Assembly (NCBI GenBank): GCA_903875445.1
Contig: CAIQWD010000068.1
Location: 62,001 to 126,000, forward strand
DNA length: 64,000 nucleotides
DNA from: an uncultured delta proteobacterium
GTDB lineage: Bacteria; Desulfobacterota; Desulfobulbia; Desulfobulbales; Desulfocapsaceae
Direction of reading: 5' to 3'
The notes below the pieces were generated by a model that saw only the letters and a list, made by a program, of their open reading frames with translations, was not told the origin of the DNA and did no database searches. Each line of letters starts with the position of its first letter. The first letter of the stretch is position 1. Positions 12,372-51,888 of the stretch are shown here, one piece after another. The position numbers and the translations under genes were made by a program.

Positions 12372-14363
12372 CTAATGGCCAACTCGTTCGACCAGGATTT
12401 CGGCGATATCCTTTGCCGCCAGGCGGTCCTCGGCGTTTGCCCCTTTCACTCCGTCTTCAAACATGGTGAGACAGAACGGGCAGTTGGCGAGCAGCAGCCC
12501 GGCGCCGGTTTCGAGGGCCATTTCCACCCGGCGGACATTGATCCTGGTGCCGAGTTTTTCTTCAGCAAGAATCCTCCCGCCGCCACCGCTGCAACAAAAG
12601 GCCTGGTCGCGGTTTTTCGCCATTTCCTGCAAAGTGCCCCCGGCCGCCGCGATCAGGTCGCGCGGGGCTTGATAGATATCGTTATAGCGGCCGAGGTAGC
12701 AGGAGTCGTGGTAGGTGCAGGAAAAGGCGCCGCCGGATGGGGCGAGTCGGCCCTCGGCTATCAGACGGGCGAGGAAGGTGGCGTGATGCTCGACTTCGAC
12801 CGCGAGTCCCAGGTCGACATAGTCCTTTGCCAGGGTATTGAAACAGTGCGGGCAGGCGGTGACGATTTTCTGCACCCCATAGCCCTGGATACGCTCGATG
12901 TTTTCCATGGCCAGGGTTTGATAGAGGTATTCGTTGCCCATCTTGCGCATCGGCTCGCCGCAGCACTTCTCCTCCTTGCCGAGGATGCCGACTTTGATGC
13001 CGGCGGTTTGGCACAGGCTGACAAAGGCCTTGGCCACCTTGATATTACGCTTGTCGAAACTGGCATAGCAGCCGACGAAATAGAGTATGTCGACGTCGCT
13101 GTCCTCGGCCAGGGTCGCGACCTCGAGGCCCTCGCTCCAGTCGGCGCGGCCGGCGTAGCCCATACCGAGCGGATTGCCGTTGACCTCGGTCTGCTCCATC
13201 GCCTTCATCACCTCTTCCCCTGGGAATTCGCCCTCCATAAGGACCAGATTGCGGCGCAACTCGACGATCTTATTCACATGCTCGACCGAGGCCGGGCAGA
13301 TATCCTGGCAGGCCCGACAGGTGGTGCAGGCCCAGATCGCCTCGCGGCCGATCGCTTCCAGCAGATCGCGGTCGGGCATGGTGCGCGCCGCCTCGCCAAG
13401 GTCGCTGATCAGACGCATCGGCGACAGCGGTTTGTCGGTGGTATATGCCGGGCAGCGATCCTGACAACGCTTGCACAGGGTGCAGGCATCGGTGTCGAAG
13501 AGGTCCTTCCAGGTAAAATCGCCGACCCTTCGTGCCCCGAAGCCTTCGCTGTTCTCATCCTCCAGGTCGAGGGTAACGAGTTTGCCGGTCGGCCCCCGGT
13601 CGGCGAAAAAGCCGTTTACAGTCGTGGTCAGCAGGTGGCGAAACTTGGAAAAGGGAATAAGGGCGATAAAGGCCAGGGCGAGAGCCAAGTGCAACCACCA
13701 CAGGCCCTTGTGCAGGGCCAAAAGCGTTCCCGGCGAGAGGGGAAAAACGATTTTTCCGACAACAAGACCAATGGGCGACCACAAGGCCAAGGCATCGTTT
13801 TTCCCTAGTTCGGTGGCCGCCATCCGCGCCCCTTCGATGACAAAGCCGCTGACGATGATGGCCAGCAGCAGCCCGTGCATCAGGAGATCGTCGCCACTAT
13901 TCAGAAGACCCGCGGGACGCACCAGATAGCGCCGGACAAAGAGACCGCCGAGCATAAGAACGGCCACAAGGCCGCCCAGATCGAGAGCCAGGCTGAACAG
14001 TTTATAAAAAGTTCCGGTGAGAAAACGACGGTCAAAGAGCAGATCGGTAAAATCCGCCTGGATGACGATGAGCACGGTACCGACAAACAACACCCCGAAA
14101 CTCCAGAAAAAAAGAGCATGGGCAAGGCCCGGGCCCGGCACCCGCAGCACCTTAGTCTGCAGGATGGCAAGTTTCAGCATGGCAGCCAGTCGCGCCAGGG
14201 GCTGGTCGCAGCGGTCAAGCGGCTTGCCTTGGCGATAGACCGCAAGGCGTTTCCAGCATCCCCAAACGAAGGCGCCGATTGCCAGCAACGTCAGCAGGTA
14301 CATCGGCCCCAAGGTTCCAAGGCCATGCCCGACATTCCAATAAATCTCCCGTGTTGCTTCCAT
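12372..14363 (-). CDS. Membrane Fe-S oxidoreductase, likely EtfAB:menaquinone oxidoreductase
   Basis: The 663-residue protein has an N-terminal membrane domain with several helices resembling NarI/DUF224-type cytochrome anchors. Two 4Fe-4S motifs follow (ACTLCKRCQDRCP and ACTTCRACQDICP). The C-terminus carries two CCG domains of heterodisulfide-reductase type (EKCCGEP and FCCSGGGG with nearby CPHC and CPFC). This architecture, beside etfAB and an acyl-CoA dehydrogenase, matches the EMO proteins proposed in Syntrophomonas and Geobacter relatives to link EtfAB to menaquinone. ATG chosen after GGGGAG; a GTG one codon earlier is possible. Confidence 0.9.
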   Translation of the reverse strand: MEATREIYWNVGHGLGTLGPMYLLTLLAIGAFVWGCWKRLAVYRQGKPLDRCDQPLARLAAMLKLAILQTKVLRVPGPGLAHALFFWSFGVLFVGTVLIVIQADFTDLLFDRRFLTGTFYKLFSLALDLGGLVAVLMLGGLFVRRYLVRPAGLLNSGDDLLMHGLLLAIIVSGFVIEGARMAATELGKNDALALWSPIGLVVGKIVFPLSPGTLLALHKGLWWLHLALALAFIALIPFSKFRHLLTTTVNGFFADRGPTGKLVTLDLEDENSEGFGARRVGDFTWKDLFDTDACTLCKRCQDRCPAYTTDKPLSPMRLISDLGEAARTMPDRDLLEAIGREAIWACTTCRACQDICPASVEHVNKIVELRRNLVLMEGEFPGEEVMKAMEQTEVNGNPLGMGYAGRADWSEGLEVATLAEDSDVDILYFVGCYASFDKRNIKVAKAFVSLCQTAGIKVGILGKEEKCCGEPMRKMGNEYLYQTLAMENIERIQGYGVQKIVTACPHCFNTLAKDYVDLGLAVEVEHHATFLARLIAEGRLAPSGGAFSCTYHDSCYLGRYNDIYQAPRDLIAAAGGTLQEMAKNRDQAFCCSGGGGRILAEEKLGTRINVRRVEMALETGAGLLLANCPFCLTMFEDGVKGANAEDRLAAKDIAEILVERVGH

Positions 14364-33488: not shown

Positions 33489-33528
33489 TATTCTCCTGTT
33501 TTAATCACCTGTGAAAATGTGGAGAACC

Positions 33529-34194
33529 ATGCCCAGCTACAATGCCTCCGCCAAGGAGAGAATCCTTGATGTCGCCGGAGAGATCTTCGGCGAGAAGGGA
33601 TTCAAGAATGCCACCATCCGCGTCATCGCCAGGGCCGCCAGGGTTAATATCGCCGCGATAAACTATCATTTTCGCGACAAGGAGAGCCTGTACGGCGCCG
33701 TCCTTGAAGAGGTCTTTTCCCAGGGCTTCTCCCGTTTCCCCGCCAACATGGATCTCGCACCGGATGCCGATCCGCAACAGCGTTTGCGGGCCTTTATCCG
33801 GGCCATGTTCTACCGGCTGCAAAGCTGCGAGGGCTGGGGCGGCATCGCCGGACGGGGACGACTCATCGCCCGCGAGCTGGTCGACCCCAGTCCGGCCTTC
33901 GAAGCGATCCTCGATCGCTACATCAAACCGCACAGGGATCTGCTCCTCACCATCATCCTCGACATCATGGGCACAGATCCCGGTCCGCGAAAACTCATGC
34001 CCTGCGTCCTCTCCATTATCGGTCAGTGCGTCTATTATGCCATGGCCTCGCCGGTTATCCGCAGGATCAGTATCGATAACGCCCCCACCGAAGAAAATCT
34101 CGACCGGCTGGCCGAATTCGTCTGGCTCTTTTCCTTGGGCGGGATCGCCAAAATCAAGGAAGAAACTCATTTGCCATCAAAGGAAGCAGTATGA
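33529..34194 (+). CDS. CecR-like TetR-family regulator (DUF1956)
   Basis: The 221-residue protein starts at the ATG after TGGAGAACC. The TetR HTH occupies about residues 1-55 (KERILDVAGEIFGEKGFKN, VNIAAINYHFRDKESLY). A C-terminal DUF1956-type ligand domain follows, as in E. coli CecR (YbiH). CecR controls the ybhGFSR exporter there, and the same exporter genes follow directly here, overlapping by four bases (ATGA). It is therefore most likely the local repressor. Confidence 0.9.
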   Translation: MPSYNASAKERILDVAGEIFGEKGFKNATIRVIARAARVNIAAINYHFRDKESLYGAVLEEVFSQGFSRFPANMDLAPDADPQQRLRAFIRAMFYRLQSCEGWGGIAGRGRLIARELVDPSPAFEAILDRYIKPHRDLLLTIILDIMGTDPGPRKLMPCVLSIIGQCVYYAMASPVIRRISIDNAPTEENLDRLAEFVWLFSLGGIAKIKEETHLPSKEAV

Positions 34195-35381
34195 AAAAAC
34201 GTCTACGCATTATTATCCCTCTCCTCCTCCTTGTTGTTGCCGGTGTAAGCCTTTTTAATTTCCTGAAAAGCCGGGAGGATGCCACCGCCCTGCGGTTTTC
34301 CGGCAATATCGAGGTCACCGAGGCGCAGATGAGTTTTCGCATTGCCGGTCGCCTGGCGGAAAGGACGGTTTCGGAAGGCGATACGGTACGCACAGGCCAG
34401 ATCCTGGCGCGCCTCGACAGGAGTGACCAGACCATCGGCGTAGCCCAGGCCGAAGCCAATCTGGCCTACGCCGAGGCGGTCTTGGCAGAGCTCGTCGCCG
34501 GCAGCCGGGTGGAGGATATCGACCGGGCCGCTGCTCGTGTTGTCCAGGCGCGCGAGAGTCTGACGGAAATGCAGCGGGGCAGCCGCAACGAGGAGGTCGA
34601 ACGGGGCCGGGCCGATCAGGCCAGCGCCAGGGCTGCCGAGCAGGCGGCCATCGTCCAGCTGAACCAGGCGAAAATCGACTTTGACCGCTACACCAGCCTT
34701 TACAAAGACGGCAGTGTCAGCAAAACCGTCCTGGAAACCTATCAAACCGGCCTCAAGACCGCGGAAAACCGGGTGAAGGAAGCGGAAGGCAAAACTAAGG
34801 CGGTAAGCGAACAGCTCAGCTTATTAAAGGCCGGGCCGCGGATCGAGCAGATCGACAGGACGGCGGCCGCCCTGAAACAGGCGGAAGCGGAGTACGCCTT
34901 GATCAAGGCCGGATCGCGGAAAGAGAGCATCGACCAGGCAAGAGCCAAAGTCCGGATAGCGGCGGAAGGAGTCAACCAAGCCCGGCAGCAGCTGAGCTAC
35001 ACCGATCTACCCTCACCCATGGACGGCGTTGTTCTCAGCACCGCGGCGGAGGTCGGGGAATATCTCAACCCCGCCTCTCCGGTGCTCACCCTCGGGCAAA
35101 TCGACCAACCCTGGCTACGCGCCTATGTCCATGAGAAGGATCTGGGCCGCATCCAGCTTAACCAGGAGGTCACAGTACAAACCGACTCCTTTCCCGGCAA
35201 AAACTATACGGGCCGGGTATCGTACATCAGCAGTCAGGCCGAATTCACCCCGAAAACCGTGCAGACCTTCGAGGAACGGGTCAAACTGATGTACCGCATC
35301 AAGGTGACGCTTGCCAACCCTGAAAACCAGCTGAAACCCGGCATGCCCGCCGATGGGCGCATTGCTATGCCCGGTCGCTGA
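34191..35381 (+). CDS. ybhG: HlyD-family periplasmic adaptor (YbhG-like)
   Basis: The 396-residue protein has a short cytoplasmic start and one TM (about 4-23). A barrel-sandwich half follows, with the biotinyl-like motif FSGNIEVTEAQMSFRIAGRL and then long coiled-coil hairpins rich in Ala/Glu/Gln. Within these, RVEDIDRAAARV, RIEQIDRTAAAL and RKESIDQARAKV show internal repetition. The returning lipoyl segment is YTDLPSPMDGVVLSTAAEVG. It links the inner-membrane ABC exporter to an outer-membrane channel. It overlaps the regulator by four bases. Confidence 0.92.
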   Translation: MKKRLRIIIPLLLLVVAGVSLFNFLKSREDATALRFSGNIEVTEAQMSFRIAGRLAERTVSEGDTVRTGQILARLDRSDQTIGVAQAEANLAYAEAVLAELVAGSRVEDIDRAAARVVQARESLTEMQRGSRNEEVERGRADQASARAAEQAAIVQLNQAKIDFDRYTSLYKDGSVSKTVLETYQTGLKTAENRVKEAEGKTKAVSEQLSLLKAGPRIEQIDRTAAALKQAEAEYALIKAGSRKESIDQARAKVRIAAEGVNQARQQLSYTDLPSPMDGVVLSTAAEVGEYLNPASPVLTLGQIDQPWLRAYVHEKDLGRIQLNQEVTVQTDSFPGKNYTGRVSYISSQAEFTPKTVQTFEERVKLMYRIKVTLANPENQLKPGMPADGRIAMPGR

Positions 35382-35394
35382 AGCGAGACCTCCG

Positions 35395-37371
35395 ATGCCG
35401 CAACCGACCGACCAGCCCCAGCTCACCCCGGCAATCGTCGCCGAACAGCTGACCAAGAGCTTTGCCGCGACCACCGCCGTGCAAGAGTTGAGCCTGAGCG
35501 TCTTTCCCGGCGAGATTTTCGGCCTCGTCGGTCCGGACGGGGCAGGCAAATCGACGAGTCTCAGGATGCTGGCGACGATCATGAACCCCGACTCCGGTTC
35601 GGCCAGGGTAGCGGGCTTCGACATTGCCCGAGAAGCGGCAAGCGTCAAGGACCACCTTGCCTACATGAGCCAGAAATTCGGCCTGTACCAGGATCTCACC
35701 GTCGGTGAGAATATCAGCTTTTATGCCGACCTCTACGGCATGAGCCGAAAAGGCAGGCAGGCCCGCATCGAGGAGTTGCTCGACTTCAGCCACATGCGGC
35801 CCTTTATCCGCCGCCGGGCCGGCGACCTCTCCGGCGGCATGAAGCAGAAGCTGCAACTGGTCTGCGCCCTCATCCACACCCCGAAAGTCCTCCTCCTCGA
35901 CGAACCGACCAACGGCGTCGATCCGGTGAGCCGCCGGGACTTCTGGCGCATCCTCCACCGCCTGCGCCGGGAACAGGTCGCCATCCTCCTCTCGACCGCC
36001 TATCTCGACGAAGCGGAACGCTGCGACCGGGTCGGCCTCATCGACCACGGCCGGCTCATGGCGACCGGCACGCCCGCGGAAATCAAAAAACTCATGGGCG
36101 GCCATATTCTGGCGATCAAAAGCCCCAAAGCCCGGAAAATCGTCGGCCTTTTACGCGGCCTGCCCTTTGCCAAAAGTGTCAACCTCTTCGGCGACACCGT
36201 CCATCTCGTCTGTGCCTCGGGCACGGGATGCGCCGGCCAGATCGCCACCCTGCTCGACCAGGCGAAAATCGACTACCAACAGCTGCGCGAGATCGAGCCG
36301 ACGCTTGAGGACATCTTCGTCAGCCTCCTTGGCGACAGCGGCGAAGCAGCGCAATTGCCGGCGGCGGAGCAGGTTGTTGTGCACGCCGGCATTAAAAAGG
36401 ATGCGACACCGGCGGTGCAGGTAGAACATCTGACCCGCCGTTTCGGCACCTTCACCGCCGTCGACGACGTCAGTTTCACCGTGCAAAAAGGCGAGATTTT
36501 CGGTTTTTTAGGCCCGAACGGCGCCGGCAAGAGCACCACCATCCGCATGCTCTGCGGTCTGCTCGGCCCGACCTCGGGCAGCGGCATGGTCGGCGGCTCG
36601 GATATCCGCCTGGAAGCGGAGCATATCAAACAGCACATCGGCTATATGAGCCAGAAATTCTCGCTCTACGAGGATCTCACCGTCAGCGAAAACATCGATT
36701 TTTACGGCGGTATCTATGGACTTTCCGGCAGTCGTCTGGCCGAGCGCCGCAACTGGGCACTGGCCATGGCCGGTCTTGAGCAACATAAAACCAGTCTGAC
36801 CTCAATCCTCAGCGGCGGCTGGAAGCAGCGGCTGGCCCTGGCCTGCGCCATTCTCCACGAACCGCCGATCATCTTCCTCGACGAACCGACCAGCGGCGTC
36901 GACCCTTTGAGCCGGCGGCGGTTCTGGGATCTCATCTATGCCATGGCCGAGCAGGGCATCACCGTCTTCGTCACCACCCACTATATGGAAGAGGCGGAAT
37001 ACTGCGACCGCATCGCCCTTATCTACGGCGGCAAAATGATCGCCTCGGGTTCGCCTCTGGAGCTGAAGACCGAGGTCATGCGCGATAAAATCATCGACCT
37101 GCGCTGCCCCGAACCGCAAGAGCTGATCGCCCCGCTGAAGGGGTTGACGGAGATCCGCGACGCCGCCCTGTTCGGCACCGGGCTGCATCTCGTCACCCCG
37201 GATGCCGCGGCCGCCGAGGCGGCAGTGCGGCGTCTCCTGACAGATCTCAACATTACCGAGGTTGCCATGGAAACCATCATGCCGAGCATGGAAGATGTCT
37301 TTATTTCGCTCATCGAAGAAGTTGATAGGCGTAACGGCCAGACCCAAGGCAAACCGGAGGCCCGGCCATGA
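35395..37371 (+). CDS. ybhF: ABC transporter with two fused ATPase domains (YbhF-like)
   Basis: The 658-residue protein (ATG at 35395) contains two complete nucleotide-binding domains. NBD1 has Walker A GPDGAGKST, signature LSGGMKQKL and Walker B LLLDEPTNGVDP. NBD2 has GPNGAGKST, LSGGWKQRL and IFLDEPTSGVDP. Both are of the ABC-2/DrrA type with C-terminal regulatory tails (PTLEDIFVSLL and PSMEDVFISLI). This double ATPase is diagnostic of YbhF. It drives the permeases encoded by the next two genes and starts 13 bases after ybhG. Confidence 0.94.
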   Translation: MPQPTDQPQLTPAIVAEQLTKSFAATTAVQELSLSVFPGEIFGLVGPDGAGKSTSLRMLATIMNPDSGSARVAGFDIAREAASVKDHLAYMSQKFGLYQDLTVGENISFYADLYGMSRKGRQARIEELLDFSHMRPFIRRRAGDLSGGMKQKLQLVCALIHTPKVLLLDEPTNGVDPVSRRDFWRILHRLRREQVAILLSTAYLDEAERCDRVGLIDHGRLMATGTPAEIKKLMGGHILAIKSPKARKIVGLLRGLPFAKSVNLFGDTVHLVCASGTGCAGQIATLLDQAKIDYQQLREIEPTLEDIFVSLLGDSGEAAQLPAAEQVVVHAGIKKDATPAVQVEHLTRRFGTFTAVDDVSFTVQKGEIFGFLGPNGAGKSTTIRMLCGLLGPTSGSGMVGGSDIRLEAEHIKQHIGYMSQKFSLYEDLTVSENIDFYGGIYGLSGSRLAERRNWALAMAGLEQHKTSLTSILSGGWKQRLALACAILHEPPIIFLDEPTSGVDPLSRRRFWDLIYAMAEQGITVFVTTHYMEEAEYCDRIALIYGGKMIASGSPLELKTEVMRDKIIDLRCPEPQELIAPLKGLTEIRDAALFGTGLHLVTPDAAAAEAAVRRLLTDLNITEVAMETIMPSMEDVFISLIEEVDRRNGQTQGKPEARP

Positions 37372-38501
37372 AACTGCGCCGCCTGGCCGCCGTGGCCCGC
37401 AAAGAATCCCTGCATCTTATCCGCGACTGGCGGAGCCTGACCCTTGCCCTGGCCATTCCGCTCCTCCTCATTCTCCTTTACGGCTACGCCCTGACCCTTG
37501 ACCTGCGCAACGTCCCGGCCGTCGTCTGGGACCAGAGTCAGAGCCCGGAGAGCCGGGAACTGCTCAGCCTGTTTGCCAGCTCTCCCTATTTTACCGTCAA
37601 GGGCTATCGCCATAACTATCTAGAACTGCAGGAGGATCTCGACCGGGGGCGGGCGATGGTCGCCATCGTCGTTCCCGGCGATTTCGCCGCCAAGGTGCAG
37701 GCGGCAAAACCGGTGCAGATCCAGATCATCGGCGACGGCAGCGATGCCAACACCTCGCGCCTTGCCATGAACTACGCCGCCAATATCGGGGCAATCTACG
37801 CCCGCACGGTCAGCTCGGAACAGATGCTCCTGCAGGGCCGCGGCAAGCTCAAGCAGCCGGTGGAGCTCGCCCAGCGCGCCTGGTACAACCCCGGTCTCAG
37901 GAGCCAGAATGTCCTCATCCCCGGCATCATTGCTCTCGTCATGATCGTCGTCGCCGCCCTTCTCACCAGCACGACCATCGCCAAAGAATGGGAGATGGGA
38001 ACCATGGAGCAGTTGATCTCTACCCCGCTGCGCGGCCCGGAACTGATCTTCGGGAAGATCGTCCCCTATTTCTGCATCGGCATGATCGATGTGGTGCTGG
38101 CCGTCCTCATGGGCAAGTGGATCTTCGATGTGCCGATCGTCGGCAACGCCGCCCTGCTCTTCGCCATGTCCGCCCTGTTTTTGACAGGTGCCCTGTTTTT
38201 CGGGCTGATGCTCAGCATCAAACTGAAATCCCAGGTGTTGGCCAATCAACTGGCGATAATCGCCGGCTTTCTGCCGACTCTCTTGCTCAGCGGTTTCGTC
38301 TTCGCCATCGAGAACATGCCGATCCCCCTGCAGATCCTCACCTACATCGTCCCGGCCCGCTACTTCATTGCCATTCTCCGCGGCATTTATTTGAAGGGTA
38401 TCGGTCTTGAGATCCTCTGGCTGAACGCCCTGTTTCTGGCGATCTACGCCCTGCTGATGATGGTTGTCGCTAACCGCAAATTCACCTTCAAACTGGAGTA
38501 G
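37368..38501 (+). CDS. ybhS: ABC-2 type permease (YbhS-like)
   Basis: The 377-residue protein has one N-terminal TM (about 22-42), a large extracytoplasmic domain (about 45-175) and five C-terminal TM helices. The ABC-2 signature EWEMGTMEQLISTPLRGPELIFGK lies in parts around residue 205. It overlaps the ATPase gene by four bases (ATGA). It is one half of the heterodimeric transmembrane channel. The E. coli system has been linked to chloramphenicol, cefoperazone and cation tolerance; the natural substrate here is unknown. Confidence 0.92.
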   Translation: MKLRRLAAVARKESLHLIRDWRSLTLALAIPLLLILLYGYALTLDLRNVPAVVWDQSQSPESRELLSLFASSPYFTVKGYRHNYLELQEDLDRGRAMVAIVVPGDFAAKVQAAKPVQIQIIGDGSDANTSRLAMNYAANIGAIYARTVSSEQMLLQGRGKLKQPVELAQRAWYNPGLRSQNVLIPGIIALVMIVVAALLTSTTIAKEWEMGTMEQLISTPLRGPELIFGKIVPYFCIGMIDVVLAVLMGKWIFDVPIVGNAALLFAMSALFLTGALFFGLMLSIKLKSQVLANQLAIIAGFLPTLLLSGFVFAIENMPIPLQILTYIVPARYFIAILRGIYLKGIGLEILWLNALFLAIYALLMMVVANRKFTFKLE

Positions 38502-38505
38502 GCCT

Positions 38506-39633
38506 TTGGGACGACGTCTTTTATGCATGCTCATTAAGGAGTTTTTGCAGATGCTGCGCGACCCGCGGATGCGGGTGGTGGTCTTCGGCACGCCGGTAAT
38601 TCAGATGACCATCATGGCCTTTGCCCTGACCACCGATGTCACCAACATCCGCCTGGCGGTGCTCGACATGGACAAGACGCCCGCCTCGCGGGAATTCATC
38701 AGCGCCTTTACCGCCGGCGAATATTTCCGCATCTCGGCTACACTTGCAGCCGAGAACGAGATCACCCCCATCCTTGATCGCGCCGAGGCCCGGGCGGTCC
38801 TGCAGATCCCCGTAGGTTTCAGTAAGGACCTGTACAACGGCCGGACCGCCACCATCCAGCTTTTAACCGACGGCACCGACAGCAACAGTACCGCCATCGT
38901 CCAGGGCTATGCCGGTTATATCCTCGGCGACTACAACGACCGTATGTTGAAAAAGCGCCTGGCGAAAAAGGGCATCACCACCCCGCCGGTGCAAATCGAC
39001 ACCGCCAACCGCGCCTGGTACAACGCCAACCAGGAGAGCCATTTTTATTATGTGCCGTCGCTCATCGCCACCATGCTCTTTATCTTCAGTCTGCTCTTGA
39101 CCAGCATCGGCATCGTCCGGGAAAAGGAGATCGGCACCATCGAACAGGTCATGGTGACGCCGATTCGCCGCATCGAATTCATCCTCGGCAAGACCATCCC
39201 CTATATGATCACCGGCTATATCTCGATGTCGTTCATGCTCATCGTTGCCTATCTTATTTTCGGCGTCCATGTCCGGGGCAGCATCATCCTCCTCTACGGC
39301 CTAACCGGCATCTATCTTGCCGGCAATATGGGTATCGCTCTGATCATCAGCGGCAGCGCCCGTACCCAGCAGCAGGCTCTGCTCACCAGCTTTCTCGTGC
39401 TCATGCCCTCGGTTATGCTCAGCGGTTTCATGTTCCCGATCACCAACATGCCCGAACCGGTGCGCATCGCCACCTTCGGCAACCCGATGCGCTGGTACCT
39501 GGAGATCCTCCGCTTCATCGTCATGAAGGATGTCGGCATCGCCTCGATCTGGCCGGCGGTCCTCGCCCAGACATGCCTGACCCTGACCTTTCTTACTGTC
39601 GCCGTGCGGCGTTTCAAAAAGACCTTGTCGTGA
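38506..39633 (+). CDS. ybhR: ABC-2 type permease (YbhR-like)
   Basis: The 375-residue protein has the same topology as its neighbour, with signature EKEIGTIEQVMVTPIRRIEF. I place the start at the TTG (38506) because GGAG lies seven bases upstream inside the end of the previous gene. An ATG at 38527 is the alternative, and the open frame extends back to 38464 within ybhS without a better signal. It is the second membrane half of the exporter and the last gene of the operon, followed by a strong hairpin terminator. Confidence 0.9.
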   Translation: MGRRLLCMLIKEFLQMLRDPRMRVVVFGTPVIQMTIMAFALTTDVTNIRLAVLDMDKTPASREFISAFTAGEYFRISATLAAENEITPILDRAEARAVLQIPVGFSKDLYNGRTATIQLLTDGTDSNSTAIVQGYAGYILGDYNDRMLKKRLAKKGITTPPVQIDTANRAWYNANQESHFYYVPSLIATMLFIFSLLLTSIGIVREKEIGTIEQVMVTPIRRIEFILGKTIPYMITGYISMSFMLIVAYLIFGVHVRGSIILLYGLTGIYLAGNMGIALIISGSARTQQQALLTSFLVLMPSVMLSGFMFPITNMPEPVRIATFGNPMRWYLEILRFIVMKDVGIASIWPAVLAQTCLTLTFLTVAVRRFKKTLS

Positions 39634-41380: not shown

Positions 41381-41728
41381 TCACAAAGTGTACCATACCT
41401 GCTCTTCTTTTTTGCATGCCCGGGCCAATCCCATATGTCGCAAGGTTGAAAAACGGGTACGAAACTCGTGTTCACCGATCCCCAGTTCACTACAGATCTG
41501 TTCGAGTGTGGCAGGGCCTTTGACCTTCAACACATCGACACACAGTTGCAATTCATCCGTGAGGCTCACACCTTTGGAAACGGTCCTGGAGGCCGTGTAA
41601 ACGGCCCAGGGATCACAGGTTTTGAGAACCGCAACGGCATCAATATAACAGTCTTCACAAAGAATCAGACCATTATGCTCATGGACATCCTGCCCTGCTA
41701 TCTTCGCTGCACATTTGCCACAATTCAT
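41381..41728 (-). CDS. Zinc-ribbon/winged-helix protein, function unknown
   Basis: The 115-residue protein starts at the ATG after GGAGGAGACAAAA; the longer frame to 41770 is not needed. It opens with CGKCAAKI and LCEDCYID, two CxxC pairs that would bind zinc. A winged-helix-like C-terminal half follows (ATLEQICSELGIGEHEF then TLRHMGLARACKKEEQ). It is probably a small DNA-binding or adaptor protein. It leads the three-gene run to the TIM-barrel and DUF1499 genes. Confidence 0.7.
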   Translation of the reverse strand: MNCGKCAAKIAGQDVHEHNGLILCEDCYIDAVAVLKTCDPWAVYTASRTVSKGVSLTDELQLCVDVLKVKGPATLEQICSELGIGEHEFRTRFSTLRHMGLARACKKEEQVWYTL

Positions 41729-42038
41729 TTTTGTCTCCTCCTGTGCCGGTTTTGACATTGCACGGCACATGGAATGCGCCTCTGAATGCCCAAGTGTAAT
41801 GAAGAACCTTATAGGAACAAACTGAGATTTTAAAGAGTTATTTTAATATATATCCCCTTTCCGACGGTGTGTAAATTTACAATAATTTCATTTTAGAGTA
41901 AGGTGCTCACATGCTTTTGGATCTCTACCAACCGAAGGTCTTCAATCATGTCTTCCTGTAACATTTTGAGCAGATGGCCCGCAGCAGCAAAACCCTGAAA
42001 CGCCTTAACCTGATTATTGGCAACCGATAAGCCATTCT
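41729..42038. other. 310-base divergent gap before the CNB/AAA/polyferredoxin gene
   Basis: No gene is seen. It must contain promoters for both directions. The one notable element is the palindrome TGTAAATTTACA. A short purine-poor leader precedes the ATG at 42039, and I see no canonical ribosome binding site there. Confidence 0.5.
41870..41881. promoter_or_regulatory. Palindrome TGTAAATTTACA
   Basis: A perfect 12-bp palindrome 158 bases before the fusion gene at 42039 and 142 bases before the zinc-ribbon gene on the other side. It could be an operator for a dimeric regulator. Its AT-rich core makes a chance origin possible. Confidence 0.35.
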
Positions 42039-44687
42039 ATGCCCGACGACAAAGCTCTCAGCAACAGTCTGCACCAAGCCCTCCTCTTCAAGAACGTCGA
42101 CGCCGGCGAGATCGGGCAAATTATTGCCGCCGGCCGGTGGCGGACAATCGAGTCGGGTCAATACGTGTACCAGCAGGGTGAAAATCATCGTCATTTTTAC
42201 ATTGTCGCAGGTGGCGAGGTGGAACTGTCGCTCAATGTCGAGGGGGGTGGGCAACACAGGGTCAGTCATATTGGCCCGGGTGGCCATTTCGGCGAAACGT
42301 CGCTTTTGACCAACAGCCGCAACAGTCTCAATGCCAGGGCTATAACCCGCGTCTCCCTTCTTAGTTTCGACCCGGATACCTTCAATTCCGTTCTCCTTGC
42401 CAACCAAGTCATTCAGCAGCAACTGAGCGTCACCCTGGCCAAACGCCTGCTGGTCTCCTTTCAGGACCACGCCGATTCCCTCACCAAAACAAACCATTCT
42501 CGCAAGGACTTAACCCATAACCTCGATCCGACATTTTTTTCCGAACCGAAGTTCCTGTCGACCGCTGAAAAACTCTCGCCGGATTCCGATCGAGAAATCC
42601 GCTTCGCCGAATCGACAATCGCCAGACAAATCAATAAAGCCGTGCAACGATTCGCTGACAACCTGGAACCGGTACTCCTCTCCGGCGAGTCCGGGACCGG
42701 AAGGCGAATGATCGCCGCCGAGATCTACCGTGCCTGCGCCTATCAAAACGGCCCCTACAGGGAAATCGATGTCCGTAACCTCGACCCCGTGCAACTCGAG
42801 GTCGAACTTTTCGGCTACGAACGCGATTCTCCGGCCTTCTCGCAGATCGCTCAACTCGGAGTTTTCGAGAGATTGCAGGGAGGGACCGTTGCCCTGTACA
42901 ATGCCGAATATATGGAGCCGGACTGTCAGCGGCAGCTGGCCAGGCTCCTGAAAAAGACCGCCGTCACCAAGGTGGCTGGCGATGCGGGGGTGGCACTGCG
43001 TTCCCGGGTGATCCTCATTTGTAACGACGCCTCCGGGCAGCAGGACGGCCACAACCGCTTGCTGCCTACCCTCTATGCCCTCTTTGCAGACCAGCATTTC
43101 CGGGCGGCTCCCCTGCGCGAACACCGCCGCGATATCCCCCGCCTGGTGCAGTATTATCTGAAGCGCTATTGCCTGCAGTACGGCAAGACCATCACCCGGG
43201 TAGACGACCAGACCCTCGGCCGCTTCATGAATTACGACTGGCCGGGCAATCTGACCGAGATGGCCAGTGTCCTGCAACGCGCCGTTCTCCTCGGTAAAAG
43301 CCACGAACCCCTGAGTCATGAAATTATTCTCGGGGTGCCCAAATCGGAAGGCAAGTGGGAGTTCAATCTGCTGCGCCTCCATAAAATTCGCGCCTTTCTC
43401 GCCAGTCGCCTCTTTCCGGTGCTGCCGCGAGTGGTTGTCGGTATCTTTTTCCTGCTTGTCCTCATCGCCCTTTTCTTCGGGCCTGTTGCCGCCGAGGAGA
43501 ATATCGGGCTGACTCTCAGCTGGGTGGTGGGCTGGCCTCTGATGATCTTTTCGTTCTTTTTTCTCGCCCGCACCTGGTGCAGTATCTGCGGGTTATCGGT
43601 GCCTGGGTGGTTGGCGCAATTGGTCCTGAAGCCGGAACGGCCGACGCCGCAATTCATCAAGCGCTATTCCGGCTGGATAATGGCCTCTCTCTGCATTCTC
43701 CTCTTTTGGATCGAAATCGCCTGGAATGCTTACCAATCCCCGCAACTCACCGCCTGGATCATCTGCACCATCACCCTCGGTTCGCTTTTCTTCAGCATGT
43801 TTTTCAAGCGCCGGGTCTGGTGCCGGTATCTTTGCCCGCTGGGGGCCATCAACGCCCTCTTTGCCATGCCGTCGATTGTCGAACTGCGCTCCAACACCCA
43901 TATGTGCATGAACCGCTGTATCGACCATGTATGCTACAACGGCGACGATGCGGCCGCCGGCTGTCCCATGTTCCGCCACCCCTTTTTGGTGGATAACAAC
44001 CGGGATTGTATTCTTTGCGGGCAATGCATTAAAAATTGCAAGCTTAACTCGATTCACCTCAATCTGCGCCTGGCACCGCAGGAGCTGTGGAATCAGCAGT
44101 CACCCCGTTTGGAAGACAGCTTTCTCGTCGTCAGCCTGGCGGCCATTTTTTATCCGTTCGCCCTCAACCAGAAAGATCCGGGTATTCTCAAGAGCCTGGC
44201 CGCAACCCTGCACCACGGCATCGGTCTGACGGAGAGTCTGCCCCTGACGACGGCAATCCTCTTCAGCGCCGGTATTGTCTTCTACCTGGCCGGCTATGCC
44301 ACAATGTCGCAGATCATGGCGCGGATCACCGGCAATAGCTGGAAGGTGACTGCCGCCAATCTCGGTTACGGCATGATCCCCCTGGTACTTGGGGCCTTTA
44401 TGGCTGTACATCTGGAAATCCTGGTGGGCGGCATTTGGCTGCTGCCGGCAAATCTCTTGCACATGGTCGGCATGGAGGCCGTCTCCGCTCCAGGCCGCAT
44501 CATGAGCCGCGACACGACCTTTGTCCTCCAGTTCATTTCGGTTTTTGGCGGACTGCTGGCCTCGCTCTATGCCACGAACCGCATCATCAAGCGGTTGCTG
44601 GCCGGGCGGCGCTACCTGCTGAAGATGTTTCTACCTTCCGGGCTGCTACTAATGCTTTCTGCTATTGCCTATCTCTATTTTTTATGA
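42039..44687 (+). CDS. Fusion: cyclic-nucleotide-binding domain, degenerate sigma-54-type AAA+ domain and membrane polyferredoxin
   Basis: The 882-residue protein has three parts. Residues about 15-145 form a CNB domain (QYVYQQGENHRHFYIVAGGE, then GGHFGETSLL). Residues about 185-435 resemble a sigma-54 activator AAA+ domain but are eroded: Walker A is GESGTGRR with Arg for Lys, Walker B reads TVALYNAEY, the GAFTGA loop is absent and WPGNLTEM lacks the sensor II Arg. Residues about 455-880 are a NapH/NosR-like polyferredoxin with several TM helices, Cys pairs C514/C517 and C595/C599, C623/C627/C632/C642, and a full CxxCxxCxxxC (C657-C667). Redox and cyclic-nucleotide signals may meet on a non-ATPase scaffold. 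Confidence 0.88.
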   Translation: MPDDKALSNSLHQALLFKNVDAGEIGQIIAAGRWRTIESGQYVYQQGENHRHFYIVAGGEVELSLNVEGGGQHRVSHIGPGGHFGETSLLTNSRNSLNARAITRVSLLSFDPDTFNSVLLANQVIQQQLSVTLAKRLLVSFQDHADSLTKTNHSRKDLTHNLDPTFFSEPKFLSTAEKLSPDSDREIRFAESTIARQINKAVQRFADNLEPVLLSGESGTGRRMIAAEIYRACAYQNGPYREIDVRNLDPVQLEVELFGYERDSPAFSQIAQLGVFERLQGGTVALYNAEYMEPDCQRQLARLLKKTAVTKVAGDAGVALRSRVILICNDASGQQDGHNRLLPTLYALFADQHFRAAPLREHRRDIPRLVQYYLKRYCLQYGKTITRVDDQTLGRFMNYDWPGNLTEMASVLQRAVLLGKSHEPLSHEIILGVPKSEGKWEFNLLRLHKIRAFLASRLFPVLPRVVVGIFFLLVLIALFFGPVAAEENIGLTLSWVVGWPLMIFSFFFLARTWCSICGLSVPGWLAQLVLKPERPTPQFIKRYSGWIMASLCILLFWIEIAWNAYQSPQLTAWIICTITLGSLFFSMFFKRRVWCRYLCPLGAINALFAMPSIVELRSNTHMCMNRCIDHVCYNGDDAAAGCPMFRHPFLVDNNRDCILCGQCIKNCKLNSIHLNLRLAPQELWNQQSPRLEDSFLVVSLAAIFYPFALNQKDPGILKSLAATLHHGIGLTESLPLTTAILFSAGIVFYLAGYATMSQIMARITGNSWKVTAANLGYGMIPLVLGAFMAVHLEILVGGIWLLPANLLHMVGMEAVSAPGRIMSRDTTFVLQFISVFGGLLASLYATNRIIKRLLAGRRYLLKMFLPSGLLLMLSAIAYLYFL

Positions 44688-49204: not shown

Positions 49205-50080
49205 ATGAATTTCGTTGGGATAGTGTCCGCCATTCTGGCGGCCCTGTTTATGGGAACAATCGGGGTTTTTTCGCGCAAAACCGGGCTTAATCCCGAGGTT
49301 ATAACCTTCTTCCGCTTGTTTTTCGGCGCCGGCTTTCTGGTTATCCTTTTGCTTGTCAGCCGCCGACTGCGCTTGCTCCTGACCTGGCCAACCTGGCCGG
49401 TGATCGTCAACGGCCTGATGCTCGCTGGTTTTATTATTTTTTACATCCAGGCGATGAACCTCACCACCATGGCCAACGCCATCATGGTCCTTTACCTGGC
49501 ACCCCTCATTGCCGCGGTTTTTGCCCATTTTTTTCTCGGGGAAAAACTCAATGCACCGAGTGTCATCCTCATCTGCACCGCCCTCTTCGGCTTTGCCATG
49601 ATGATGGAATTCAAGCTCGATTTTTCGTCCGGCACAAACCACCTCCGGGGGTTAGGCTTTGCCGCTCTTTCTCTAGCCTGCTATTCGTCCTTTATCCTTA
49701 TCAATCGAACGATCCGCAGCACTATCCACTGCTACACCCGCACCTTCTACCAACTGATGACCGGGGCCCTGTGCATGGTGCCTCTCTTTATCACCAATTT
49801 TCCCGAGATAAGTGCCACGAATTGGCTTTGGCTGATTGGTGCCGGATTTTTCCCGGGATTTCTCGGCATCCTTTTGGCGGTGGTGGCCCTGGAAAAACTG
49901 CCGGCGGCGACCTTTGGTACCCTCGCCTATTTCGAGCCGATTTTCGTGGTCTTCCTCGGCTGGGTGCTTTTTGCGGAGCACCTCAACACCCTGCAGCTGA
50001 CCGGTTGCCTGCTGATCCTTACAAGCGGTGCGGTCAAAGGGTATCTAACCACCCGAATTGCCACGAATGTCACCTGTTAA
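49205..50080 (+). CDS. EamA/DMT-family transporter
   Basis: The 291-residue protein consists of ten TM helices in two EamA repeats (ILAALFMGTIGVFSRKTGL and ALSLACYSSFILINRTIR start them; FLGEKLNAPSVILI and FAEHLNTLQLTGCLLIL are the matching fourth/fifth-helix segments). Such proteins export amino acids, nucleotide sugars or other metabolites. It starts 18 bases after the radical SAM gene and may export its product. The stop overlaps the convergent diguanylate cyclase stop by four bases. Confidence 0.9.
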   Translation: MNFVGIVSAILAALFMGTIGVFSRKTGLNPEVITFFRLFFGAGFLVILLLVSRRLRLLLTWPTWPVIVNGLMLAGFIIFYIQAMNLTTMANAIMVLYLAPLIAAVFAHFFLGEKLNAPSVILICTALFGFAMMMEFKLDFSSGTNHLRGLGFAALSLACYSSFILINRTIRSTIHCYTRTFYQLMTGALCMVPLFITNFPEISATNWLWLIGAGFFPGFLGILLAVVALEKLPAATFGTLAYFEPIFVVFLGWVLFAEHLNTLQLTGCLLILTSGAVKGYLTTRIATNVTC

Positions 50081-51888
50081 ACCTGTTCCTCCGTCCACAT
50101 ATCCTTGGTAAAGCGGACACTTCGGTTGCGACCTTCTTCTTTGGCACGATAGAGGGCCACATCGGCAAACTTGATGCAACTCCACAGTGTGCCGGTATCG
50201 GCGGGGAATTCGCTGACTCCGAGGCTGATGGTCTTTTGGATCACGCCGTCCGGCAACTTGATCTTCAGCTGCTGGATGTTTTCTCGGATCTTCTCGGCGA
50301 TTTTGATGCTCTCTCCCTCGCCCACATCGAGCAGCACCGCCAGGAACTCCTCGCCGCCGAAACGGATGACGATATCCGAGTCGCGAATGCTCTGGCGGAT
50401 AACCTTCGAGGTTTCCTTGAGCACAAGATCCCCGGCATTGTGCCCGTAGGTGTCGTTGACCTGCTTGAAATAATCGAGATCGCACATGATGAGGCCGATC
50501 GCCTTGCCTCGGCGCAAAACACCGGCGACGATCTTTTCCGTATATTCCTGCAGGTATCGCCGGTTATTGAGGCCGGTCAAGGAATCAATCAAAGCCGAAT
50601 CCTTGAGGGAGCGCATCAGCCGCTTGGTCTCGATCACCGCCAGGGATTCGTTGATATACTGCTCGGCCTTAAAGATTTTGGCCTCCATCGCCTTAACGCC
50701 GGACGGGCTGTCGGGCGCATCGAAGACGAACTGCACGACGGCCACCGGCGCGCCACTGACCACAATCGGCAGACAGTAGTGCAGGGTTCCCTCCTGGCCG
50801 GTAAATTGGCGGCAGATTGCCGGAAAAATGGTGGAAGTGATGCCGTGTCCGGTCCGTTTGGCCTTGCAGAGATCGTTGTCGTCAAGAATCGCCAGATTGC
50901 ACTGCATCTCCGCCTGATCAAAGCTGCTTGGGTAGGTCAATTGCATGGCATTTTTGGCATTGTCCACCTGATAGATGAAACATCGTTCAATACCAATCTG
51001 TTGAGTGAAAATCTCGGCAAGTCGCTGGTACACCTCTTCCAGGTTGTCATCCTCCTCAATCACCTTTTTGAAAACCGAGAGATTGCTGATCGAATCCATC
51101 AGGCTGTTGAATTCCGACGATAGCAGTCCGATCTCGTCGATGGAGGTGATGGCGATACGCTTGGTCAAAGCCGTTTGCCCCTTGCCGCCGGCAATATCCT
51201 GCAGGCCCTCGATGACTTTCTTGAGGGGGCGGGTAATGCCGGTCCCGACCACGATGGCAAAGGAGATGGTGAGGACCGTAAACACCATGGTCCCGGCCAA
51301 CATGTAGAAACGAAGGCGGTTGACATCGTTGCGCACATCGTTGATATAAATACCGCTGCCGAGGATCCACCCCCAGGGCTCGTACAACCTCACATAGGAA
51401 ATCTTCGGCACCGGCTTCTCCTCGCCGGGTTTTGGCCACATATAATCGACAAAACCGGCGCCATGGGTTTTGCAGACCGCCACAAACTCCCGGAAAAGAA
51501 ATTTGCCGTTCGGGTCTTTGTTGTCGGTCAGATCGACACCTTCCAGTTCCGGCTTCATCGGATGCATGATCATGATCGGTTTCATGTCGTTGATCCAGAA
51601 GTAATCATTCTCCCGGTAACGCAAGCCGCGAATGCGCTGGGCAAGCTGTTTTTGCGCATCCTCCTGACTGATGCTGCCGTTTTTCACCAGGGTTTCATAC
51701 TCATAGAAGACACCGAAGGCCACGTCGACTACATTTTTTACGCCCTCCTTCTTCCCTTCCAGCATCTTCTCTTCGACCAAGGGCATGAAATACCACAGAA
51801 TGATCATCGTGATAAAGCCGACGCTGACAATCGAAATCGTGACAATCTTCGACAGAATATGCCACTTTTTAAATCTCGGCAGTAACAT
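50077..51888 (-). CDS. Membrane diguanylate cyclase (Cache-HAMP-GAF-like-GGDEF)
   Basis: The 603-residue protein has a TM helix (about 12-34) and a Cache domain of the sCache_2 type (YFWINDMKPIMIMHPMKPEL, then YEPWGWILGSGIYIND). A second TM (about 194-215), HAMP, a GAF-like segment (about 280-420) and a GGDEF domain follow. The active loop is RFGGEEFLAV, preceded by an I-site R-D-S-D. It makes c-di-GMP and should be product-inhibited. It adjoins an MSHA-like pilus cluster whose ATPase has a c-di-GMP-binding motif. Confidence 0.94.
   Translation of the reverse strand: MLLPRFKKWHILSKIVTISIVSVGFITMIILWYFMPLVEEKMLEGKKEGVKNVVDVAFGVFYEYETLVKNGSISQEDAQKQLAQRIRGLRYRENDYFWINDMKPIMIMHPMKPELEGVDLTDNKDPNGKFLFREFVAVCKTHGAGFVDYMWPKPGEEKPVPKISYVRLYEPWGWILGSGIYINDVRNDVNRLRFYMLAGTMVFTVLTISFAIVVGTGITRPLKKVIEGLQDIAGGKGQTALTKRIAITSIDEIGLLSSEFNSLMDSISNLSVFKKVIEEDDNLEEVYQRLAEIFTQQIGIERCFIYQVDNAKNAMQLTYPSSFDQAEMQCNLAILDDNDLCKAKRTGHGITSTIFPAICRQFTGQEGTLHYCLPIVVSGAPVAVVQFVFDAPDSPSGVKAMEAKIFKAEQYINESLAVIETKRLMRSLKDSALIDSLTGLNNRRYLQEYTEKIVAGVLRRGKAIGLIMCDLDYFKQVNDTYGHNAGDLVLKETSKVIRQSIRDSDIVIRFGGEEFLAVLLDVGEGESIKIAEKIRENIQQLKIKLPDGVIQKTISLGVSEFPADTGTLWSCIKFADVALYRAKEEGRNRSVRFTKDMWTEEQV

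Follow-up and report, generated by a model that had tools for sequence, protein, structure and literature searches.

What can a sigma-54-type AAA+ domain do once its catalytic residues are gone, and why would it stand in one protein with a cyclic-nucleotide-binding (CNB) domain and a membrane polyferredoxin? The question is raised by one gene at 42039-44687 (plus strand) of the window, by which we mean the whole 64,000-nucleotide stretch analysed here (contig CAIQWD010000068.1, positions 62,001 to 126,000, from an uncultured delta proteobacterium of the Desulfocapsaceae). Its frame has an ATG start and runs uninterrupted for 882 amino acids (aa). A first-pass annotation made from the letters alone had described a single frame fusing the three parts, and profiles for these parts found them in the same order (CNB, AAA+, polyferredoxin) in all members of a family set of 70 distinct sequences that includes the window's protein (three rows, L147, L148 and L194, are apparently cut by contig ends). 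Judged from these sequences, the fusion with a dead AAA+ domain is a conserved family and not a one-off. The gene and its parts are listed below, where bEBP stands for bacterial enhancer-binding protein, TM for transmembrane, pLDDT for the predicted local distance difference test, and A3 for an alignment of 56 rows that includes 13 proteins without the sensory head.

42039..44687 (+): CNB / pseudo-AAA+ / polyferredoxin gene, 882 aa, stop included (frame read, Pfam, homologues)
42141..42398 (+): CNB domain, residues 35-120 (PF00027, cNMP_binding, 63.3 bits, cut-off 27.5)
42489..42605 (+): variable linker, residues 151-189 (pLDDT below 50 at 152-163 and 168-189)
42609..43037 (+): sigma-54-type AAA+ core, residues 191-333, catalytic residues lost (PF00158, Sigma54_activat, 71.8 bits, cut-off 20.2; Foldseek to bEBP AAA+ domains)
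42684..42707 (+): degenerate Walker A GESGTGRR, residues 216-223, Lys to Arg (alignment)
42825..42842 (+): position of the GAFTGA loop, here DSPAFS, residues 263-268 (alignment)
42888..42902 (+): position of Walker B, here VALYN, residues 284-288 (alignment)
43059..43085 (+): position of the FRxDLYYRL arginine segment, here LLPTLYALF, residues 341-349 (alignment)
43116..43304 (+): AAA+ lid, residues 360-422 (PF25601, AAA_lid_14, 53.4 bits; WPGN kept, sensor II Arg to Thr)
43359..44684 (+): membrane polyferredoxin, residues 441-882, about 9 TM helices (model of residues 442-882; hydropathy)
43578..43589 (+): membrane-edge Cys pair C514/C517, WCSIC (70/70 members; invariant in A3)
43821..43838 (+): membrane-edge Cys pair C595/C599, CRYLCP (70/70 members; invariant in A3)
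43905..43964 (+): putative Fe-S ligand set C623/C627/C632/C642 (70/70 members; in A3, C632 and C642 invariant, C623 and C627 at least 90%)
44007..44039 (+): putative Fe-S ligand set C657-x2-C660-x2-C663-x3-C667 (70/70 members; invariant in A3)

A sigma-54-type AAA+ domain without its catalytic residues

The first-pass annotation had reported the loss of the Walker A Lys, Walker B and the GAFTGA loop, and the window copy indeed reads GESGTGRR, VALYN (no D-E pair) and DSPAFS at these sites; beyond the three losses named there, both FRxDLYYR arginines and the sensor II Arg (WPGNLTEM) are also missing. For comparison, the AAA+ parts of the 70 members were aligned with those of 62 control relatives, taken from loci fetched only by their AAA+ domain, in which no open reading frame of at least 250 aa had a polyferredoxin match. 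The Walker A Lys is present in 36 members compared with all 62 controls, and the Walker B D and E occur together in 0/70 and 54/62, respectively, with a single acid left in a few members (for example L024, L120, L149 and L197). An exact GAFTGA was found in none of the members and in 34 controls; at four or more of the six letters, the counts were one member (L195, GAFADA) and 61 controls. The first FRxDLYYR Arg is kept in at most one member, which is poorly aligned there, versus 61/62 controls, the second in 0/70 versus 56/62, and the sensor II Arg in 4/70 versus 60/62, whereas WPGN was retained in both groups (62/70 and 59/62). By these alignments, the catalytic parts are gone family-wide and the structural signature (WPGN) is retained.

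Rates of substitution suggest that the dead domain has been kept under purifying selection about as strong as that on the redox part. In a quick tree with flagged long branches, in which two rows labelled Myxococcota are records titled only Deltaproteobacteria, the window's protein falls in subclade A, a supported group of 20 rows that is sister to B. For seven pairs within subclade A, the ratio of nonsynonymous to synonymous rates (dN/dS) ranged over 0.09-0.12 in the AAA core and 0.05-0.10 in the lid; the polyferredoxin gave 0.10-0.18 and the CNB domain 0.13-0.24. These ratios are rough, as dS often approaches or exceeds 1. The lid region (residues 346-440) had the lowest ratio where values were computable for every part, the pair L041 and L013 had a core ratio slightly above that of the polyferredoxin, and linker residues 151-186 showed the top dN in six of the seven pairs. 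A decaying AAA+ domain was considered as a candidate and rejected on the low dN/dS of core and lid, rough as these ratios are.

The fold points to where the domain came from. Foldseek places the AAA+ part among bEBPs, with 1ny5, 6iy8, 4qht and 2c9c among the best matches, and the core and lid share the fold of proteins such as NtrC1, DmpR, FlrC and PspF; unlike these, the window's protein is membrane-attached and lacks the Walker A Lys, Walker B, GAFTGA, the FRxDLYYR arginines and a helix-turn-helix (HTH) domain, for which it had no Pfam match at 0.01, its C-terminal half consisting of membrane helices. On sequence and fold, the domain is best described as the descendant of a sigma-54 activator, stripped of the residues on which ATP hydrolysis and sigma-54 contact depend; since these are lost, the window's protein cannot be an ordinary sigma-54 activator. 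VpsR and GAFTGA-less NtrC are bEBPs off the canon and offer a precedent for losing the sigma-54 contact loop, and VpsR is itself among the fold matches of the window's AAA+ part (7v2b). Both are DNA-binding regulators, and we know of no non-canonical bEBP with a redox membrane part.

The family draws on isolates as well as other records, from the window's own phylum and from samples of three other phyla. Within the window's own genome there is a full-length paralogue at 47% identity (G000 contig C27:94555-97146; L002, L129), which has the Walker A Lys and the CNB Arg and has lost Walker B and GAFTGA, and full-length homologues in relatives are 58-82% identical to the window's protein. At least one full-length member occurs in 26 of 36 genomes of the same taxonomic family; the window's type A (at least 58% identity) was found in 14 of the 36, and all 14 also carry type B (44-48%). 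In the wider order, three of 21 genomes have a member (G043 and G051 full-length, G044 from reading the whole frame). Because only two candidates per genome were scored and the genomes are samples of each phylum, the carrier counts at greater distance are lower bounds: matches spanning AAA+ and polyferredoxin were obtained in 20 of 395 genomes of the phylum sample, own genome counted, and in 5/198, 1/199 and 2/199 genomes of the samples for the phylum of the L066 genome (titled Thermodesulfovibrionales), Acidobacteria (L071) and Planctomycetota (L077). A Pseudomonadota-type sample (L108, Emcibacteraceae) gave 0/299 in a search without a positive control, and a further sample (L116, 11/198), seemingly of the window's own phylum and partly the same genomes, was left out of the counts. 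No paper among the matches listed in the open-access literature describes the fusion; most subscription papers and all bioRxiv-only preprints lie outside that scope.

The redox part and the input domains

The Cys motifs of the polyferredoxin had also looked intact at first reading, and the wider comparison bears this out. Twelve Cys residues (514, 517, 595, 599, 623, 627, 632, 642, 657, 660, 663 and 667) are present in every one of the 70 members, the last four forming the complete CxxCxxCxxxC that had been reported; in A3, ten are invariant and C623 and C627 are kept in at least 90% of rows. The membrane part modelled alone (residues 442-882, 56 rows) reached a pLDDT of 91.4 and a predicted template modelling score (pTM) of 0.90, and model and hydropathy together predict about nine membrane helices. 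If the N-terminal domains are cytoplasmic, the Cys sets would lie on the same side.

Solved structures offered little to compare this part with: Foldseek returned no match at E <= 0.001, and a PDB sequence search only two weak matches, to Fe-S subunits. Pfam finds Fer4_5 at residues 573-609. The closest described proteins are the NapH/MauN-type ferredoxins (TIGR02163, NF007013), which likewise have TM helices and a membrane-edge Cys pair followed by a [4Fe-4S]-type Cys set, and which 52 of the 56 A3 rows match at 1e-5; the window's protein differs in its roughly nine TM helices, its fused sensory head and an irregular first Cys set, C-x3-C-x4-C-x9-CP. Its NCBIfam similarity to NapH/MauN covers residues 583-674 at 42.3 bits, far below the cut-off of 213, so it is not filed with that family. 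Related genomes also carry stand-alone polyferredoxins, most of about 455 aa (L121-L124, L128), which align with the membrane part at 25-27% identity and, unlike the fusion, have no sensory head; since the membrane core exists alone, the head looks like an addition. These stand-alone genes have a recurring neighbourhood: beside the L123 copy lie MgtE, a trypsin-like/PDZ protease and CNNM-CBS genes, and the same gene clusters partly recur in the other loci.

The first-pass label of cyclic-nucleotide sensor survives as far as the domain goes, with a profile match of 63.3 bits, and finds no support as to sensing by the window copy. Across subclade A, the ribose-contacting Glu is conserved in 20/20 rows (E86 in the window's protein) and the phosphate-binding Arg in 0/20, so that the window copy is a doubtful cAMP sensor; by its sequence, it has probably lost cAMP binding in the usual way. 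At the Arg position the window's protein has N95 with R94 just before, and an Arg one residue earlier, found in three of the 20 rows including this one, may or may not act as a substitute. Among the other 23 rows of the A1 alignment, 15 have the phosphate Arg, and cyclic-nucleotide binding appears more likely for the own-genome paralogue. The input side also varies between members: before the same dead AAA+ domain and polyferredoxin, Pfam recognizes CNB alone, FHA plus CNB (L176, L196) or CNB plus GAF (L164, L195). In L118, L120 and L133, an N-terminal stretch looks MshEN-like by eye, with no Pfam match.

Proposed mechanism and its rivals

We favour, with evenly divided confidence, a protein in which a cytoplasmic sensory head, containing the pseudo-AAA+ domain, acts in cis to control a membrane polyferredoxin that serves electron transfer. 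Signals received by the CNB domain (and, where relatives have them, by FHA or GAF domains) would change the state of a pseudo-AAA+ assembly, possibly a ring or larger complex, and the AAA+ domain was probably retained as a folded, oligomerising or conformational relay from these input domains to the redox membrane part. The head would regulate the electron flow of that part, with all clusters facing the cytoplasm and electrons moving between quinone and a cytoplasmic partner. Sequence-level support comes from the architecture, the catalytic loss, selection on the dead domain, the conserved Cys residues, the swapping of inputs and the head-less polyferredoxins. The earlier suggestion of a scaffold or switch, not a transcription activator, remains the best inference from the lost catalytic and sigma-54-contact residues; its "nucleotide-responsive switch" holds up as a switch, and is weak as nucleotide-responsive for a copy without the Walker A Lys. 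In single cases, the neighbours would also suit the inputs: a Cache-HAMP class III cyclase gene (G125, L162:4837-6603, minus strand) is divergent from a member whose CNB cassette is canonical (FGE...PRSAS), and the FHA member L176 (G137) is directly followed, on its own strand, by a Ser/Thr kinase gene.

Several observations weigh against control in cis. The full-length AlphaFold2 model (43 rows) had a mean pLDDT of 77.4 and a pTM of 0.56, which does not fix the placement of the head relative to the membrane part. The matching signal-gene neighbours were each seen at single loci, within a chosen set of neighbours that was profiled. Subclade A lacks a conserved neighbourhood, hence a conserved redox partner beside the gene, and the type B genes lie among hisD, rsmG, leuB, prs-like and mlaA (Pfam names in L054), again with no redox partner. 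Class III cyclase matches occur in 51 of 54 genomes tested, in 41/44 carriers but also in 10/10 non-carriers, so their presence is uninformative; no such match was found in two genomes that carry subclade A, G001 (84% complete) and G017, and the window's own genome has three weak ones. To these must be added the absence of the phosphate Arg from subclade A.

A broader claim, possible in our view but on present evidence doubtful, is that the family, widespread and apparently undescribed so far, uses a dead sigma-54-type AAA+ assembly to gate an electron conduit in the membrane according to intracellular signals (second messengers, phospho-threonine or GAF ligands). If true, it would be a signal-gated electron wire made from a transcription activator that left transcription. 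Accounts of membrane electron flow usually invoke substrate supply and gene expression; this family suggests that cytoplasmic signals act directly, at the protein level, on a membrane redox protein by way of a dead AAA+ domain. A transcription-activator AAA+ domain that appears strongly selected in several phyla, although its catalytic and sigma-54-contact residues are gone, makes an AAA+ role without ATP hydrolysis testable.

The strongest rival turns the direction of signalling outward: the polyferredoxin would be the sensor, of quinone or electron status, and at the membrane the dead AAA+ subunit would bind to or co-assemble with genuine sigma-54 activators as a tethered inhibitor or decoy. 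Unlikely as we judge it, it has the lid as the most constrained part of the protein in its favour, as well as the 44 further sigma-54-type AAA+ matches in the window's own genome. In two genomes of one genus (L168:4439-10065, L174:6873-12636), moreover, the family gene follows on one strand a histidine kinase gene (profiled in L168, by similarity in L174) and a gene for an NtrC-type regulator that retains both GAFTGA and Walker A. This arrangement is found in just two of the eight loci of that genome family (L168-L175), being absent in the six others (L169-L173, L175), and the adjacency would also fit plain transcriptional control of the gene.

A somewhat smaller chance attaches to the AAA+ domain being a mere structural tether left by the fusion event, with sensing and redox activity uncoupled. 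The fold alone would suffice for this, in keeping with the loss of Walker B and the second FRxDLYYR Arg in 70/70 members; a mere spacer should, however, drift or be replaced, and this domain is conserved about like the redox part, its lid more so, in several phyla. Improbable, finally, is an assembly or maturation factor that supplies electrons for building a metalloenzyme and not for respiration, the role in which CcoG and NosR act. The membrane part resembles NapH-type proteins, and NosR is a membrane polyferredoxin that has a large extra N-terminal part and a flavin domain, and a NosR model is matched by three of the 56 A3 rows; the window row had no match to it at 1e-5, and no maturation gene was seen among that part of the neighbours which was profiled.

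To an unusual but active sigma-54 activator we give next to no credence and reject it as contradicted by sequence, the Sigma54_activat match and bEBP fold notwithstanding, since the window's protein lacks GAFTGA, the Walker A Lys, Walker B D-E, the FRxDLYYR arginines and the HTH domain, and no member has the Walker B D-E pair. A sequencing, assembly or frameshift artefact is just as remote and was rejected, as the same full-length gene occurs in isolates such as Desulfoprunum benzoelyticum DSM 28570 (where the protein is 66% identical) and Desulfosediminicola flagellatus (record titled complete genome) and a paralogue in the own genome; a frameshift, an artefact and homologues with an active AAA+ domain, which the first-pass annotation had named as grounds against its reading, were all looked for and none was borne out.

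Gene neighbourhood and expression signals

Close to the window gene, neighbours are shared with few relatives: among 15 subclade-A loci with unequal flanks, RtcB and PdxH are common to L038 only and a CbiR-like gene to L038 and L047. For type B, a crude gene call lists the hisD cluster in 9/9 of L053-L061 and the prs-like and mlaA clusters in 7/9 each. In at least six of 23 type-B genomes, a class III cyclase gene lies 4-13 kb downstream of the type B gene and convergent with it; in the three of those six that were compared (L209:6659-8938, minus strand, L210 and L211), it is CHASE2-type by eye. Near the own-genome paralogue there is no cyclase within 10 kb, where the contig ends.

Scans for expression signals yielded no lead. 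Upstream of 43 rows, a sigma-54 promoter pattern matched in seven, with wrong spacing or a weak box, and not upstream of the window gene. A sigma-70 scan returned four promoter-like sites, all on the minus strand, versus 1.8 in shuffles, and a terminator scan three terminators versus 4.0 in shuffles.

Other genes of the window deserve brief mention. Divergent from the fusion gene, positions 41381-41770 (minus strand) encode a 129-aa protein with a LIM-like zinc-binding start (sub-threshold in Pfam), which had no match in the 15 subclade-A loci, some with short flanks. At 33511-39633, genes for a TetR/CecR-like regulator, HlyD, a double ABC ATPase and two ABC-2 permeases lie on one strand and resemble an ordinary efflux operon. 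A 663-aa protein at 12372-14363 (minus strand), with CCG cysteine-rich domains, a 4Fe-4S pair and a weak NarI-like stretch, is likely a membrane redox protein. About 5 kb downstream of the fusion gene, positions 50077-51885 (minus strand) encode a Cache-HAMP-GGDEF protein, likely a diguanylate cyclase.

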